A stretch of 26,926 nucleotides of DNA, taken from a virus. The notes beneath the pieces were generated by a model. It worked only from the letters and a program-made list of their open reading frames with translations. It did not search any database and had not been told where the DNA came from. The stretch is taken from positions 1 to 26,926 of IMG/VR virus record IMGVR_UViG_3300042691_017949; one strand, given 5' to 3'. A program made the translations under genes and the position numbers. This document shows, one piece after another, positions 6,697 through 24,726 of this stretch (its first letter is position 1; each line of letters starts with the position of its first letter).

Positions 6697-7794
6697 ATGA
6701 AGAAAATCTTCGCAATCATGATTGCATTTGCGGCTACCTCTGTGTTTGCTCAAAGTGCTGTCAACATCACTGGCCTGGTTGACACTGGCCTCTTGTTCAC
6801 CAATGCAGCCACTGGTGTAAATACCAAAGGCCTTGCAGCCAACAATTCATCTACCACAGTGCTTACTATCGGAGGCACTGAGGATTTGGGCAGCGGCCTA
6901 CGTGCCAATTTTAAACTGCAACTCACACCTGATTTTATTAATGGTGCTGGTGTTGAAGGCACCTCATACAACTCAACCACAGCAGGCACTGTGGGTGTTG
7001 GTCAAGAAGCCTTTATAGGCACAGAAGCCAAGTGGGGCACTGTGAAACTTGGTCGTGTGAACTCAAACATCTTGGATGCATGGAACAACGGCTCGGTATT
7101 CGGAACTGCTATAGGTTCAGGCTATGGACTAGCAGGTAACGTATTCACTCGTTACAGCGCCACAGCAACTCACACCGCACAAACAGCACCCACACGTTTC
7201 AATGGAGCCATTCGTTATGAGTCTCCAGCAGTGGCAGGTTTTAGTGGTTCCTATTTGTATGTGCCACCAAGTGCAAGTATCAATGCTCAAAGTGTAGTAG
7301 ATTATGGTGTTAAATATGTCAATGGTCCTTTGAGTGTGCAGTATGCCGCTCAACGTATCGAACAATCAGGCACTTTGGCCACTACCACGGCATCGTTCAT
7401 TGCCACTGGTTCGCAGGCCTTAGAAGCCGGCACTAACAATACTCTCAGCTTGTTGTCTGCCAACTACAAGATTGGTGCTGCAACTGTGTATGGTGCTCGT
7501 TGGACAGAAAAACAAAACACTGCCACTGCCATTGACCAGGTTGGACAGATGCTTGGTGCCAAGTACACCGTGGGTGCTACCAGCTTCATGATTTCAACTG
7601 GTTCCAGCAACGAAAAGAGCACAGCCAATGTAGACAAGAAAATTCTTGGTTACGGTGTGGATCATGAACTCAGCAAGAGAACCAACTTGTATGCACGTTT
7701 TGACACACGTGATGCGGACACCAACACAGCAGGTGCTACTACAACTGCTGGAGTGACTAAACGCACCGCAGTTGGACTACGTCACACGTTTTAA
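6697..7794 (+). CDS. Gram-negative outer-membrane porin (betaproteobacterial type)
   Basis: This 365-residue protein is a trimeric-porin-family beta-barrel. A classical signal peptide (MKKIFAIMIAFAATSVFA) ends at an AFA|QS cleavage site. Mature sequence starts with the SAVNITGLVDTGL strand, followed by repeated amphipathic strands, the GTEDLGSGL and QEAFIG...WGTVKLGR motifs of Burkholderiales porins, and a terminal VGLRHTF strand ending in Phe for BAM recognition. The gene is intact, has its own promoter and is followed by a terminator, so it behaves as an independent cassette within the phage genome. The cargo is unknown. It could change nutrient flux or replace the receptor surface of the infected cell. 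Confidence 0.93.
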   Translation: MKKIFAIMIAFAATSVFAQSAVNITGLVDTGLLFTNAATGVNTKGLAANNSSTTVLTIGGTEDLGSGLRANFKLQLTPDFINGAGVEGTSYNSTTAGTVGVGQEAFIGTEAKWGTVKLGRVNSNILDAWNNGSVFGTAIGSGYGLAGNVFTRYSATATHTAQTAPTRFNGAIRYESPAVAGFSGSYLYVPPSASINAQSVVDYGVKYVNGPLSVQYAAQRIEQSGTLATTTASFIATGSQALEAGTNNTLSLLSANYKIGAATVYGARWTEKQNTATAIDQVGQMLGAKYTVGATSFMISTGSSNEKSTANVDKKILGYGVDHELSKRTNLYARFDTRDADTNTAGATTTAGVTKRTAVGLRHTF

Positions 7795-11531: not shown

Positions 11532-11986
11532 AAAAAATTTACTATGAAAAAATTGGACGTCGGTATCATCCTGTACATGAGTACGATAGTACTCTTTTGG
11601 ACAGTTTCCCTAAAGGTAGTCACCTTGTCCTCGTATACCCCGGGGGTCAATCCCGTAGGTTTAACGTGGAACCTAACCATGTCGCGTTGATTGCGGCCAG
11701 TCGTGTGGCTGAAGATGCCATGTGCGATGCTCTTAGAAAAGCCAGCGAAATGCGCCCGCAACGAACTCCTATTACAGAAGGCCAACGTCGAGCTTGGCGC
11801 AAGTTGGCCAAAGAGTTTGGCGATGACTTGGCCACACTGAGCTTGAGCTGTGCCCGAGACATTGCTGATGCTGGGATTCAGGCCTTGCAAGACGAAGCAG
11901 ATAAATTAATGCAACACGAAAGTGTAAAAAACGCATACGAACAATTCCTGTTGGTATGCGAATTAACCAAGAAGGAGAATGCATGA
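11528..11986 (+). CDS. Hypothetical protein (152 aa)
   Basis: The start at 11528 (MKKIYYEKIGRRYHPVHEYD) is chosen because it overlaps the previous stop as ATGA. The frame is open further upstream, but that region is inside another gene. The N-terminal 50 residues look beta-rich (GSHLVLVYPGGQSRRFNVEP), and the rest is helical (AEDAMCDALRKASEM, then GQRRAWRKLAKEFG). I recognise no family. The last bases contain the ribosome-binding site of the membrane protein that follows. Confidence 0.65.
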   Translation: MKKIYYEKIGRRYHPVHEYDSTLLDSFPKGSHLVLVYPGGQSRRFNVEPNHVALIAASRVAEDAMCDALRKASEMRPQRTPITEGQRRAWRKLAKEFGDDLATLSLSCARDIADAGIQALQDEADKLMQHESVKNAYEQFLLVCELTKKENA

Positions 11987-12681
11987 TGTATGCAACAACT
12001 ATTGACAGTTATCGAGACGCCGCAGGCGTGAATCAGGCCATGGGCCGAGTGTATGGACACATGGCGCTGGCTGTGTTAACCAGCATGCTGGTAAGCATGT
12101 TTGTGGGTATGAACCCGGAACTGGTTGAGTTTTTCTTTACCGGCATCCTAAAATGGGTGGTAATTTTTGCACCCCTGGCGGCAATATTTGTGGTTGCGCC
12201 TGTGCTGGCCGGTAATCCCACACCTCCAGTGGCCATGGCAGCCTTGCACGGCTTTGCGGCCTTGATGGGCTTGAGCTTTGCAATGATCTTTGTGATCTAC
12301 ACCATGGGGTCGATCTTTACTGCCTTCATGGGTGCGGCTGTGCTGTTCGGCACCATGAGTGCGTATGGTTATTTTACCAAACAAAGTCTTGATTCAGTGG
12401 GCAAGTATGCCTTTGTCGCTTTGATCGCCATCTGCATTGCCAGTATAGTTAATATCTTTATTGGCAGCACCGTGATGCAGATGGTGATCTCCGCAATTGC
12501 AATCCTGGTGTTTTTGGCACTCACAGCCTACGACACCCAAACCATTCGTGAAAGGGTATCACGTGAGGATAGCACCTACGGTGATGAAGTGTCTGGAGCA
12601 CTGAGTTTGTACTTGGACTTTATCAATATCTTTATTCACTTGCTTCAGTTGTTCGGAATCATGAACAACAAAGACGACTGA
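11983..12681 (+). CDS. Bax inhibitor-1/YccA-family membrane protein
   Basis: This 232-residue polytopic membrane protein has about seven hydrophobic helices. It carries the BI-1 signature FALTAYDTQTI-like segment here as FLALTAYDTQTIRE, preceded by FIGSTVMQMVISAIAI. Family members (E. coli YbhL/YccA, TMBIM) conduct Ca2+/H+ or bind the FtsH protease. YccA is known to inhibit FtsH. The start at 11983 has GAAGGAG at 11971-11977 and overlaps the previous stop. It is intact. A role in protecting phage membrane proteins or regulating host FtsH is only inference. Confidence 0.88.
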   Translation: MMYATTIDSYRDAAGVNQAMGRVYGHMALAVLTSMLVSMFVGMNPELVEFFFTGILKWVVIFAPLAAIFVVAPVLAGNPTPPVAMAALHGFAALMGLSFAMIFVIYTMGSIFTAFMGAAVLFGTMSAYGYFTKQSLDSVGKYAFVALIAICIASIVNIFIGSTVMQMVISAIAILVFLALTAYDTQTIRERVSREDSTYGDEVSGALSLYLDFINIFIHLLQLFGIMNNKDD

Positions 12682-14129: not shown

Positions 14130-14159
14130 TTGACACGGCCACCACTCCCCATGTATAAT
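14130..14159 (+). promoter_or_regulatory. Consensus sigma70 promoter for the structured RNA region
   Basis: TTGACA at 14130-14135 is a perfect -35 box. It is separated by 18 bases from a perfect TATAAT at 14154-14159. The predicted start is near 14166. It begins two bases after the previous stop codon. Confidence 0.85.
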
Positions 14160-14165
14160 TACTGT

Positions 14166-14345
14166 GTGCATGGACAGGGAGATTGGTGGCGATCTAATGG
14201 TATGAGCGGGGTGATCGATTCGCCCGGGCCCGACATAACCGTGGCAGGTAGATGTAAAGTCCACGAGGTTGAGACACTGTCCAAGACCTAGCAATAGGTC
14301 AAAACCGGCTGGTACCCGGTGTATGCTCAAGTTGGAACTCACAGT
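14166..14345 (+). ncRNA. Structured RNA of unknown family (leader or small RNA)
   Basis: This non-coding stretch of about 180 bases folds by eye into a multi-helix structure. A closing helix pairs 14171-14177 with 14277-14283 (TGGACAG/CTGTCCA). It encloses three hairpins: 14180-14185/14190-14195, 14209-14213/14221-14225 with a seven-base loop, and 14237-14244/14261-14270 with a two-base bulge. Two hairpins follow: 14285-14290/14295-14300 capped by a GCAA tetraloop, and 14304-14308/14316-14320. Two helices contain G-U pairs that would become C-A mismatches on the other strand, which favours plus-strand RNA. AAAGGAA at 14347-14353 serves the next gene, so this may be its 5' leader. No known family matches convincingly. 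Confidence 0.7.
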
Positions 14346-14359
14346 GAAAGGAACGTTAA

Positions 14360-14677
14360 ATGTCTGTTAAAATAGAAGCCTCTGATTCCATGCTTCAATC
14401 CCTTGACTCTCTTAAAACAACGGCCTTGCCCATGCACAAATTATATTTTGAACTGAGTGATGTTGACACATGGTATGCCATCATGCGTGAAGCACGAGCA
14501 CAGTTTGGCAAAAACTGGCGCAGTCAAGCTCATGTCAAACGACGACTAGAACACTCCAGTCTCTGGCGAGTGGATGGCCACGCGGAACGTGTGTGGTTTG
14601 AAGTACCTGATCCCAAGTTTGGCACCTGGATAGCCATTAAACATGCTGTTAGACAGGTGTTACCACCCGGTAAATAA
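14360..14677 (+). CDS. Hypothetical protein (105 aa) downstream of the structured RNA
   Basis: This soluble, mostly helical protein includes LYFELSDVDTWYAIMREARAQFG, the basic segment NWRSQAHVKRRLEHSS and a late WFEVPDPKFGTWIAIKHAV. I recognise no family. It is the first gene after the strong promoter at 14130 and starts seven bases after the AAAGGAA site. Whatever the RNA leader senses, this protein would be the first product affected. Confidence 0.68.
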   Translation: MSVKIEASDSMLQSLDSLKTTALPMHKLYFELSDVDTWYAIMREARAQFGKNWRSQAHVKRRLEHSSLWRVDGHAERVWFEVPDPKFGTWIAIKHAVRQVLPPGK

Positions 14678-14683
14678 TACTCT

Positions 14684-16213
14684 ATGATATTTGGTTTCAG
14701 TATACTGGCCACTGCTCTGTTGTTGAGCGTAGTGGCCGCTTATTATTCGGTAGCAGGTCTCACTGCTATCTTCTCCGCGGCCACGATTCCAGTTATTATC
14801 ATGGGTGCCAGTCTCGAACTGGGTAAGATTGTGGCCACTGTATGGCTGCACAACAACTGGAAACGTGCTGGTATCTTGTTCAAGATGTATTTGATACCTG
14901 CTGTGGCATTCCTCATGCTGTTGACTTCGATGGGCATTTTTGGATACTTGTCCAAAGCCCACAGTGACCAAAGCCTAGTATCTGGAGACGCGGTGGCCAA
15001 GGTTGCCATCTACGATGAAAAGATCAAAACCTCAAAGGACAATATAGATGCGAACCGGAAGGCGCTTAAACAAATGGATGAAGCTGTGGACCAAGTTATG
15101 GGTCGAAGCAGTGATGAAAAAGGTGCCGATAAAGCTGTTGCAATCCGAAGAACACAGCAAAAAGAACGTGTCCGCCTTCAATCTGAGATTGCGGCCGAAC
15201 AGAAAACTATTGCCGCCCTTAGTGAAGAGGCAGCGCCATTACGGGCTGAGTTCCGCAAGGTCGAAGCTGAAGTAGGCCCAATCAAGTATATTGCGGCCTT
15301 GGTGTATGGCGACAATCCCGATGCCAATGTGCTGGAGAAAGCGGTCAGACTTGTGATCATAATGATTGTGCTGGTATTTGACCCACTGGCTTTGACTTTA
15401 ATTTTGGCCGCCAACAAACAATTTGAATGGGCTCGGCAAGGCACCGGAGGCTTTGTGCATGACGAACCTGCGTACCCGCCCGACGATGGTCCTATCAATT
15501 CTCAAGTGCTAGATCAATTACGTGCTAGAGCAAGCGAGGAATTGCCACAGGGTAAAATGGTAGATAAACAAGAATTATTCCCCGACGATCCCATACCTTG
15601 CTACAAGTGTGGTACGCCACTGGTTGACGCTCCAGGTATTGGTCTGTTCTGCCCCAACCGGGAATGTGATGTCATGGACAATATCAACGGGGAAGAACCT
15701 ATTGAGTTTGCAACTAACACTCAAGAGATCCCGAGTGTAGAACGTCCTGGCGATTATGTAGAACCACCTGATGATTATTGGGAACACGAAGCAGAAAATG
15801 AAATCAAAGCCGCCATTACAAAATGGAAAGCAGCCAATCCTGACGATACTCTGAAAAATCAACGTTATAAATTCATACGCGGTGAAATCTCTCAGTTGCC
15901 ATGGATGAGCTTGATTGCTGACACAGTGTCGGGCAAGCAAAGCAACAGTGGGTTTGGCACACAGTTTCCGCCACATGCCGAACGCGGTGACACCTTTGTA
16001 AGAGTTGATCGTCTGCCCAGCATGGTCTATAAGTACAATGGCAAAGACTGGATGGAAGTTGACAAAACTGTAACTGACAGTTATACTTACGATACTGCTT
16101 ATATTGATCACTTGATTGAGCATATTGCATCCGGCGAATATGATCCAGAGTTGCTGAGTGAAACCGAGCGTGAGCAAGTGGCCCAGCGTTTACAACAAAA
16201 TACAAACACATGA
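14684..16213 (+). CDS. Large membrane protein with coiled coil and zinc ribbon
   Basis: This 509-residue protein has three hydrophobic helices at the N-terminus (about residues 3-24, 28-50, 68-88). A long charged coiled coil (about 105-200) follows, then a fourth helix (about 223-245, LVIIMIVLVFDPLALTLILA). Next comes a zinc ribbon with C306, C309, C323 and C328. The C-terminal domain contains RGDTFVRVDRLPSMVYKYNG and ends near ELLSETEREQVAQRL. The first part resembles phage inner-membrane proteins of unknown role. The start at 14684 has only a weak ribosome-binding site. The stop overlaps the clpX start by four bases. A membrane-anchored scaffold is inferred. It could also be a virion protein. 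Confidence 0.75.
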   Translation: MIFGFSILATALLLSVVAAYYSVAGLTAIFSAATIPVIIMGASLELGKIVATVWLHNNWKRAGILFKMYLIPAVAFLMLLTSMGIFGYLSKAHSDQSLVSGDAVAKVAIYDEKIKTSKDNIDANRKALKQMDEAVDQVMGRSSDEKGADKAVAIRRTQQKERVRLQSEIAAEQKTIAALSEEAAPLRAEFRKVEAEVGPIKYIAALVYGDNPDANVLEKAVRLVIIMIVLVFDPLALTLILAANKQFEWARQGTGGFVHDEPAYPPDDGPINSQVLDQLRARASEELPQGKMVDKQELFPDDPIPCYKCGTPLVDAPGIGLFCPNRECDVMDNINGEEPIEFATNTQEIPSVERPGDYVEPPDDYWEHEAENEIKAAITKWKAANPDDTLKNQRYKFIRGEISQLPWMSLIADTVSGKQSNSGFGTQFPPHAERGDTFVRVDRLPSMVYKYNGKDWMEVDKTVTDSYTYDTAYIDHLIEHIASGEYDPELLSETEREQVAQRLQQNTNT

Positions 16214-17424
16214 AATCAATTGACCAAATCACAACTTGTAGTTTTTGTGGCAAGCACAAAGACGCAGTAGCAAAACTTATTGTTGGAGTAGACGTTGCAA
16301 TTTGCAATGAGTGTGTAGAATTATGCGAAACATTACTCAAAGATGATACTATAATTAAACCAGTTGAAGTAACAGCACTGGACCCCGAAGATATTAAAAA
16401 CCATCTTGATCAATATGTGATTGGACAAGAACGTGCCAAACAGGTACTGAGCGTGGCAGTTGTGAATCATTACAAACGTATCAGTAATCCAGGAACTGAT
16501 ACTGAAATTGAAAAGTGCAACATTCTTATGCTTGGCCCAACCGGGTCGGGTAAAACATTGTTGGCCCGTTCAGTAGCACGTTATTTGGATGTGCCATTTG
16601 TTATTGCTGATGCCACAAGTTTGACCGAAGCAGGTTATGTGGGCGATGACGTTGAGAGCTTGATCTCTAGACTGTTTGCTGCGTCAGGCGGCGACATTGC
16701 CAAAACACAACGTGGTATTGTGTTCATTGACGAAATTGACAAGATCAGCCGTCGTAGTGAAAGTGCCTCAATCACTCGAGATGTATCAGGCGAAGGTGTA
16801 CAACAGGCCTTGCTCAAACTGGTAGAAGGCACCAAGTGCAGAGTCACTCCCACAGGCAATCGCAAGCATCCTTCGGGAGACATGATTGAGATTGACACCA
16901 CCAACATCTTGTTTATTGCTGGTGGCGCATTTGTGGGACTAGATAATCTAGTAAAAAATCGTGTGCGTGGAACTTCAATTGGTTTCAATGCCAGGGTCAA
17001 GGATGACACAGAAACTCATCTGGACCAGGTCACGCCAGAAGACTTGATCAAGTTTGGTATGATCCCAGAGTTTGTGGGTCGTTTCCCCAGCTGGGTAGCA
17101 CTAAACGAGCTCAGCAAAGAAGATTTAATCCGTATCTTGCTGGATGTCAAACACAGTTACATTGCACAATACTCTTGGTTGTTTGAACAAGACAAAGTAG
17201 AACTAGAATTCAGTGCCGAAGCCCTGGAAATGATCGCAGATCGTACTATCTTGAACAAAACTGGTGCTAGAGGCTTGCACTCAGAGCTAGAGCGTGTGTT
17301 ATTGCCCCATATGTTCTATTTGGCTCGCTACCGCAGGGAAGGAGTAAACCGCGTGTTTATTGATGCAGACCAGGTAAATACCCCTACAGAACTAAAGGAA
17401 GCAAATGGAAAAGTTAAGGGGTAG
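16210..17424 (+). CDS. clpX: ClpX-type AAA+ unfoldase
   Basis: This 404-residue protein should unfold substrates and feed them to ClpP. The N-terminal zinc domain has CSFCGK and CNECVELC. The AAA+ module has Walker A GPTGSGKT (109-116), the GYVGDD pore loop, Walker B VFIDEID (171-177), an RKH loop (NRKHPSGD), sensor 2 GARGL, and an IGF tripeptide at 257-259, the loop that docks on ClpP in cellular ClpX. It is about 20 residues shorter than the E. coli protein, mainly at the C-terminus. No clpP is seen here, so host ClpP is the probable partner. The start overlaps the previous stop by four bases. Confidence 0.95.
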
Positions 17425-23654: not shown

Positions 23655-23679
23655 CTAATATTAAAAAATGCTGTATAAT
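23651..23679 (+). promoter_or_regulatory. Sigma70 promoter for uvdE (leaderless start)
   Basis: TTGACT (23651-23656) contains the TGA stop of the previous gene (23652-23654). A 17-base spacer leads to a perfect TATAAT (23674-23679). The expected start, seven bases further, is 23686, the A of the start codon. Confidence 0.82.
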
Positions 23680-23685
23680 TACAGT

Positions 23686-24726
23686 ATGACTACACCTATT
23701 ACTCCTCGTATCGGCTTTTGTTGCAAATGGCTCAATGACCCCACAGAATGTGGCGGTATGAAAGTCAATGCCAAAGACCGTGATCTAAACGGACGTTCCA
23801 CTACCATGCGCTGGCTCCGCGAACACAAAGACGAAGCTGAACAGCGTCAGTGGGACATTATGAATCACAATGCGTCAGCGGCTGTGAAGATGATTGAGCG
23901 TGTGGGCACATTGCCTCCTGAACGGCGCATGGTGCGGCTGGGCAGTGAAATGCTACAAGGTTACACTGAGAAAGATTGGATAGATTGGTGGCAACGACGT
24001 GAAATTCAAGATCACTGCGAACAAATTTTTAAACCGGTGGGCGATACTGCTCGGAGGCTTGGCGTTCGGCTTTCCTTCCATCCAGGACAATTTTGTGTAC
24101 TGGCAAGTGAGAGTGATGAGATTGTGGAACGAAGCATACTCGAATTTGAATATCATGCTGACATGGCACGGTGGATGGGCTATGGCGAGACCTGGCATGA
24201 TCATGGATTCAAGATCAATGTACACCTGTCAGGCAAAGGCGGCCCTGCTAAGTTTTTGCAAACACTCAAACGATTGAGTCCCGAGGCTCGCAACCTCATA
24301 ACTATCGAAAATGATGAGATGACAAATGGATTGGACACTACTTTGGCTGTGGCTCAGCATGTGGCTCTTGTGTTGGATGTACACCACCACTGGATCAACA
24401 CCGGCGAATACATCGAACCGCAGGACGTTCGTACAAGTCGGGTTATTGACAGCTGGCGCGGTGTTCGTCCTGCAATGCATTTTAGTACTAGTCGCGAGGA
24501 CATTTTGGTCGACCATGTTCGAACAGTTCGACCAGACCTTACTGAACTTCTTGCTAGAGGTTATAAGAAACAGAAACTCCGAGCACACAGTGATTTCTGT
24601 TGGAACTCGGCTGTGAACGAGTGGGTCTTAGGCTTTCGTGATCAGTTTGATATACAAGTGGAAGCCAAGGGCAAAAACTTGGCAAGTGAACAACTTTATG
24701 AACAATATATTTCTCAACATCTTTGA
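23686..24726 (+). CDS. uvdE: UV DNA damage endonuclease (UVDE)
   Basis: This 346-residue metal-dependent nuclease of the TIM-barrel type nicks DNA next to UV photoproducts and other lesions. Metal ligand motifs appear in order: LSFHPGQF with H132, INVHLSG, ITIENDE, LDVHHHW, MHFSTSRE and AHSDFCWN. An in-frame ATG at 23668 lies upstream of the promoter's -10 box and cannot be the start of that transcript. The start at 23686 is therefore preferred, and no ribosome-binding site precedes it. The length is similar to Schizosaccharomyces and bacterial UVDE cores. The 3' end overlaps a membrane protein gene by 29 bases. Confidence 0.92.
   Translation: MTTPITPRIGFCCKWLNDPTECGGMKVNAKDRDLNGRSTTMRWLREHKDEAEQRQWDIMNHNASAAVKMIERVGTLPPERRMVRLGSEMLQGYTEKDWIDWWQRREIQDHCEQIFKPVGDTARRLGVRLSFHPGQFCVLASESDEIVERSILEFEYHADMARWMGYGETWHDHGFKINVHLSGKGGPAKFLQTLKRLSPEARNLITIENDEMTNGLDTTLAVAQHVALVLDVHHHWINTGEYIEPQDVRTSRVIDSWRGVRPAMHFSTSREDILVDHVRTVRPDLTELLARGYKKQKLRAHSDFCWNSAVNEWVLGFRDQFDIQVEAKGKNLASEQLYEQYISQHL

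Follow-up and report, generated by a model that had tools for sequence, protein, structure and literature searches.

Some leaders of bacterial ribosomal-protein mRNAs, e.g. alpha-operon S4, extend into the coding start, and in Helicobacter pylori type I toxin mRNAs of the AapA1 type are inactivated by long-range pairing of the 5' end. In phage T4, the proteins gp32 and gp43 act as repressors of their own translation by way of leader structures, each a small pseudoknot or hairpin located entirely upstream of the start codon (PMC3014915). GOLLD and ROOL, which are large RNAs of ~660 to over 800 nt, usually lie near tRNA islands and are not fused to an ORF (PMC12286853).

Here, we describe an RNA element of ~275 nt in the DNA of a virus (IMG/VR record IMGVR_UViG_3300042691_017949, positions 1-26,926; this stretch of 26,926 nt is referred to as the window). 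The element runs from the start site of a promoter to ~14440, i.e. into codon 27 of a gene for a hypothetical protein, gene X, and we suggest, with a probability of about 0.6, that, as a cis-acting structured mRNA element, it governs how the gene X operon is translated. With ribosomal-protein leaders it shares a structure that can span the ribosome-binding site and the first codons as well as the linkage to one gene; unlike them, it has no sequence or structure match in Rfam, and gene X does not encode a ribosomal protein. To our knowledge, no translational operator is at once this large, nested in its architecture and so deeply overlapped with a coding region. Structured mRNA elements of such length that reach deep into a coding region, with codons that covary with the leader, are rare, and none is known to us from phages of this group. 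Similarly to the T4 gene 32 and gene 43 operators, the element is a structured leader near a ribosome-binding site in T4-like phages with initiation as the proposed point of control; unlike these operators (PMC3014915), it is nested and multi-branched and reaches into 26-27 codons, and the binding of protein X to it is putative. GOLLD and ROOL, known from phages and lake metagenomes (PMC12286853), are likewise large and strongly covarying, whereas the element described here is 275 nt long, is tied to gene X, matches nothing in Rfam and has no tRNA nearby in the loci checked. In the comparison with toxin mRNAs of the AapA1 type (PMC6733600), the common trait is long-range pairing of the transcript's 5' end with a far-off segment of the same mRNA, and the differences are that gene X is no recognised toxin and that the partner is the early coding region.

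The element is absent from Rfam and, in how it would work, is like known phage and bacterial translational operators. The window has no match at the gathering threshold of Rfam 15, in agreement with the first-pass annotation, which had seen no signature of a riboswitch, tmRNA, RNase P or 6S RNA, and scanning the window and nine homologous loci with permissive settings gave matches at chance level. ARAGORN found neither a tRNA nor a tmRNA in the window, and six homologous loci likewise yielded no tRNA. The element is not described in the openly accessible journal papers searched.

Transcription of the element likely depends on a conserved promoter, as suggested by its score and spacing. The TTGACA-N18-TATAAT sequence, which had been called a perfect -35/-10 pair, is indeed the sole match in the window (0.03 expected by chance), and a promoter score of at least 10/12 is found at the same spot in 57 of 75 homologues compared to 0.8% of random places. 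The spacing from the -10 box to helix P1 is 5 or 7 nt in 67 of the 75 homologues, and the start site is expected at ~14165-14167, which is where P1 begins. In L054 and L056, relatives of the gene upstream of gene X (13745) precede a tRNA-like sequence, and a similar strong promoter lies before that sequence.

Table 1. Coordinates in the window of the promoter, the RNA element with its helices, and the genes of the proposed operon
Feature	Position	Strand	Evidence or remark
Sigma-70-type promoter, TTGACA-N18-TATAAT	14130-14159	+	Motif match and conservation in homologues
Entire RNA element (leader and gene X codons 1-27)	14164-14440	+	R2 full-length match, 255 bits; end of synonymous-site constraint near codon 26-28
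P1 5' strand (transcript 5' end), GUGCAUGG.CAGGG	14165-14179	+	Partner 14424-14438
P2, GUGG / CCAC	14186-14189 / 14261-14264	+	Column pair 14188/14261, E=0, phylogeny-aware scan
P3, AUCUA / UAGAU	14192-14196 / 14249-14253	+	92% paired; 5/5 pairs two-sided
P4 hairpin arm, 14199-14210 / 14229-14240	14199-14240	+	81% paired; 8/10 pairs two-sided
P8 5' strand, GAGA, in leader	14271-14274	+	Partner UCUC 14408-14411; covariation
P10 5' strand, CACUGUCCAA	14275-14284	+	Pairs with 14332-14335 and 14341-14346; two-sided cells 34 vs 11.6 shuffled (alignment A5)
P5 hairpin, GCAA tetraloop, 14285-14290 / 14295-14300	14285-14300	+	96.7% paired; 5/6 pairs two-sided
P6 hairpin, ACCGG-loop-CCGGU, 14304-14308 / 14316-14320	14304-14320	+	96-100% paired
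P10 3' strand, UUGG-AACUC-ACAGUG, adjoining Shine-Dalgarno	14332-14346	+	Partner 14275-14284; covariation
Joining segment with putative Shine-Dalgarno AAAGGA (14347-14352) and start codon (14360)	14347-14365	+	Unpaired in consensus structure; position read from sequence
Gene X, hypothetical protein, 105 aa	14360-14677	+	ORF; no Pfam/PHROG/NCBIfam/PDB match
P9 5' strand, GUUAA, codons 3-4	14366-14370	+	Partner UUGAC 14403-14407; 99.6% paired
P7 hairpin inside gene X, GAAGC 14375-14379 / GCUUC 14392-14396	14375-14396	+	Covariation
P9 3' strand, UUGAC, codons 15-16	14403-14407	+	Partner GUUAA 14366-14370; covariation
P8 3' strand, UCUC, codons 17-18	14408-14411	+	Partner GAGA 14271-14274; covariation
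P1 3' strand, within codons 22-27 of gene X	14424-14438	+	Partner 14165-14179; covariation
Membrane/virion-like protein gene	14684-16213	+	Downstream in 70/70 RNA-bearing loci
ClpX-like AAA+ ATPase gene, zinc-binding domain	16210-17424	+	Downstream in 64/70 RNA-bearing loci; two genes behind RNA

The helices in Table 1 would form a multi-branched domain in which (i) P1 closes the domain, (ii) P2, P3 and P4 make up one arm, and (iii) P8 opens into P10, which carries P5 and P6, and into P9, which carries P7. All covarying helices are nested, and in the window the Shine-Dalgarno sequence and the start codon lie unpaired between P10 and P9. In P1, 14165-14173 and 14175-14179 pair with 14424-14428 and 14430-14438, 14 of the 15 positions pair in the window, two-sided changes are found in 11 of the 15 pairs, and the helix is also present in the single-sequence minimum free energy fold of 14164-14440. 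An interim pseudoknot between GCAUG (14168-14172) and UAUGC (14322-14326) was 97% compatible with the sequences and was rejected because it had no two-sided change and because its 5' strand has a covarying partner in gene X; this was the sole pseudoknot-making pairing, and none that covaries was found upstream of the start codon. A pairing between CAAGG in the 5' part and CCUUG in the middle of the element has borderline covariation and is possibly an alternative state. In one locus (L296:7207-7472) an in-frame deletion of 48 nt takes out the 3' strands of P8 and P1, representing either a natural mutant or an assembly artefact.

The compensatory changes that the first-pass annotation had proposed to look for in homologues were found. 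In a structure-blind, phylogeny-aware covariation scan of 58 full-length sequences, the two best pairs, 14272/14410 (paired in 58/58 sequences) and 14188/14261, scored above every simulated null alignment; the next pairs fall in P1, P4, P7, P10 and P3 and are singly modest (E 0.1-5), reflecting the limited number of sequences. When pairs were counted on a sequence-only alignment of 51 sequences and 64 pairs, from which sequences the structure had itself been drawn, 90.3% of the pair cells were paired compared to 77.5% after shuffling and at most 43% after sliding, 50 of the 64 pairs changed on both sides, and two-sided cells numbered 460 against 152 expected. The more divergent class II sequences are the better test because they did not contribute to the model: 84.2% of the cells are paired compared to 68.3% after shuffling, 42 of 62 pairs are two-sided, and there are 180 two-sided cells compared to 54 (0 of 500 shuffles), in an alignment that was made by the model and is thus biased towards it. 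P8 is 100% paired in classes I and III and also in class II, where its pairing was spotted by eye before counting. On a tree for which only the folded part of protein X was used, ~13 state changes, each on both sides, map to the variable P8 pair 14272/14410, which is paired in 67/67 sequences; P7 had ~7 pair-state changes at each of two pairs, and in the group of L290 the substitutions of Ala7 by Gly and of Met11 by Ile turn a C-G pair of P7 into G-C. The excess of G-U cells over A-C cells (186 vs 82) identifies the plus strand as the functional strand, as had been proposed. Single-sequence folding of the 277 nt gives a weak signal (MFE z -1.29). Judged by these compensatory changes, which exceed shuffled and slid controls and extend to sequences outside the model, the element is a conserved structured RNA family.

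Part of the element is protein-coding. Synonymous sites are frozen in codons 2-26 of gene X but not in later codons, the mean synonymous constraint being 1.12 bits for codons 2-26 compared to 0.30 for codons 28-100 (Mann-Whitney p 4e-9). For example, CTT encodes Leu18 in 73/73 sequences and ACG encodes Thr21 in 71/73, with TCT used for Ser8 in 41/41 and GCC for Ala7 in 32/32. The homologues fall into window-like sequences (class I), shorter ones (class III; L193, L198, L268 and L271) and the class II sequences (L158, L187, L199, L204-L213, L218-L220, L228 and L231). In class I, translation covers the P9-P7 part; classes II and III leave its 5' portion untranslated, with the sequence still kept, and in L193 the homologous untranslated stretch holds in-frame stops (TAAAATAG), which argues that the RNA rather than the peptide is conserved. 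In class II the start codon is shifted downstream within the RNA by ~12 codons, which means that the geometry of the start site is not conserved throughout. Where relatives of gene X lack the RNA, their proteins begin with the residue that opens the folded domain or just ahead of it (e.g. MHKIWF in L270). Correspondingly, residues 1-20 of protein X are predicted by AlphaFold2 to be disordered (pLDDT 45-51 vs 94-96 in the core) and the fold starts near residue 25. Together, these comparisons indicate that over the first 26 codons the same letters specify an RNA structure and code for protein. For annotators this is a caution that RNA structure rather than protein can dictate the first 26 residues of a gene. 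Synonymous freezing is also seen at the end of gene X, in its final three codons (CCC GGT AAA, 14666-14674), which probably reflects overlap with the start signals of the next gene.

Searching IMG/VR with protein X gave 21 relatives in the first round, and all of these first loci with enough upstream sequence have the promoter followed by a leader much like that of the window, including those with a different gene upstream; deeper protein-alignment searches reached loci down to ~40% protein identity, nearly all with a recognisable leader. Among 100 sources, the model R2 detected the element at the start of gene X in 95 loci and the window, at full length except in L172, a locus truncated at the end of its contig; the four negative sources are gene X loci that lack the RNA by inspection. 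A DNA pattern derived from the leader alone, ignoring gene X, found 21 contigs with 16 new loci, all of which have the element followed by gene X. In total, the element precedes gene X on ~110 viral contigs, a count that includes near-identical contigs, the independent lineages being fewer. Exactly one copy is present in each of 13 large records and none in two 316-kb records with gene X (L214 and L270), and neither the R2 scan of loci and large records nor the leader-only pattern detected a copy away from gene X. Comparison of the homologues thus supports the fold, its extension into codons 1-27 and its single-copy linkage to gene X. Linkage to one gene and overlap with the translation start mark the element as a cis-acting mRNA leader, and the promoter suggests that leader and gene share a transcript.

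The loci without the RNA keep the same downstream genes, and several share an upstream gene with the RNA-bearing L122 and L123 (39-49% identity). On a ClpX tree the RNA must have been gained or lost at least twice, L195 being nested among RNA-bearing phages. That a few relatives have gene X with the same neighbours but not the RNA indicates that the RNA is dispensable for gene X. The carriers are uncultured large (giant) T4-like phages, and sibling contigs have T4-type Gp23 capsid genes. No relative of protein X was found in 84,980 bacterial and archaeal species genomes by two protein-alignment scans or in cultured phages by tblastn, and six cultured jumbo phages with major capsid proteins ~61-66% identical to one of the group have neither gene X nor the RNA.

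Combining these data, we suggest that transcription would start at the strong promoter and that the first ~275 nt would fold into a nested domain, which would control translation of X and, via the operon, possibly of the membrane protein and the ClpX-like ATPase encoded behind it. We infer translational control because the domain holds the start signals and because three helices and one hairpin use codons. With codons as one strand of P9, P8 and P1, the folded element and translating ribosomes would be in competition, folding and translation being mutually exclusive: repression would follow from a regulator stabilising the fold, and a ribosome loading first would keep the fold open. A point against cis control is that the model leaves the ribosome-binding site unpaired, and repression would then call for either a ligand or tertiary masking. 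Protein X may be the likeliest regulator, holding roughly half of the probability assigned to translational control, by autogenous control analogous to that by T4 gp32 and gp43 and in line with phages that lost the RNA yet keep X; against this, protein X has no known RNA-binding domain by sequence, no match in Pfam, PHROG, NCBIfam or PDB sequences and no confident fold match (best E 0.07). Alternatively, a metabolite or host factor is a possible regulator. Loss of the RNA with retention of gene X and its neighbours fits a regulatory add-on. The element and protein X make a specific RNA-protein pair that is open to testing, and an operon that includes a ClpX-like ATPase probably has its point of control here.

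The large fold with its many conserved unpaired bases could also serve beyond control of X. More tentatively, the element may be a translation-coupled switch that is off when bound or folded and open when translated, or a ribozyme or aptamer of an undescribed class. In the case of a switch, the initiating ribosome would have to dismantle the domain that presents its own start codon, and the switch would set early expression of the operon for X, the membrane protein and the ClpX-like ATPase.

That the ligand is a small molecule is unlikely. In such a riboswitch, the P1/P2/P8 junction (AGAU / UAGGUU / CUUAAAnnAACG) would bind a metabolite signalling host state and in that way set translation of the X operon, and the three-way-junction architecture, the clustering of conserved unpaired bases at junctions and the proximity of the leader to the ribosome-binding site are all as expected for it; however, the element matches no Rfam riboswitch and always precedes the same gene X, never a recognisable metabolic gene, in a context without a clue to a metabolite. 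We consider it slightly less probable still that the strong promoter serves a trans-acting or structural RNA, i.e. a decoy, an RNP component or a ribozyme, with which gene X is merely co-transcribed. Large ornate phage RNAs without an assigned function do exist (GOLLD and ROOL; PMC12286853), the promoter is near the host-type consensus and the fold persists while the start codon moves, but the fold requires codons of gene X for P1, P8, P9 and P7, no copy was found away from X in the loci and records scanned, and some phages lost the RNA and kept X. The first-pass annotation had considered a new phage leader or a small RNA acting before the gene at 14360: a structured leader is present at that gene, and the coding overlap argues against a free small RNA and in favour of the cis-acting mRNA element.

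It is very improbable that conservation reflects a constraint on DNA, such as an operator or a packaging site, or on the N-terminal peptide. An inverted repeat, GCCACC..GGTGGC (14136-14189), spans the -10 box in close relatives of the window and speaks for this reading, yet it is absent in most of the distant homologues, and neither version accounts for lockstep double changes over long distances, the plus-strand excess of G-U over A-C, the synonymous freezing or the persistence of the homologous segment where it is untranslated. Equally small is the chance that the structure is the one drawn earlier, i.e. a leader of ~180 non-coding bases closed by 14171-14177/14277-14283. The bases are structured, but the RNA is not purely non-coding as it runs ~80 bases into the gene at 14360. 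The proposed closing helix can be formed by the window sequence and could be a window-specific alternative state; in 32 sequences, however, it is 54.1% paired compared to 55.4% after shuffling and has no excess of double changes, and both of its strands have other, well-supported partners, 14277-14283 pairing within 14332-14346 and 14171-14177 belonging to the true closing helix, 14165-14179 with 14424-14438 in codons 22-27. Likewise, the hairpin at 14180-14185/14190-14195 lacks covariation, the T-arm-like hairpin at 14209-14214/14220-14225 is no different from shuffles, and 14171-14350 on its own, the basis of the earlier drawing, shows no folding excess over shuffles (z -0.31), whichever strand is taken, so that the earlier evidence alone did not suffice for a structure. 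The GCAA hairpin is real and covaries (P5 in Table 1). By these comparisons most of the earlier structure is wrong, and the cis-acting element closed by P1 takes its place.

Elsewhere in the window, the large and small chains of ribonucleotide reductase are encoded at its start, a Gram-negative porin at 6697-7794 (Porin_4, E 1.6e-33) and a UvdE-type UV endonuclease at 23668-24726. A Bax1-I (BI-1 family) membrane protein is encoded at 11956-12681 (E 1.5e-52), and 26 of 70 loci encode a relative of it upstream of gene X.
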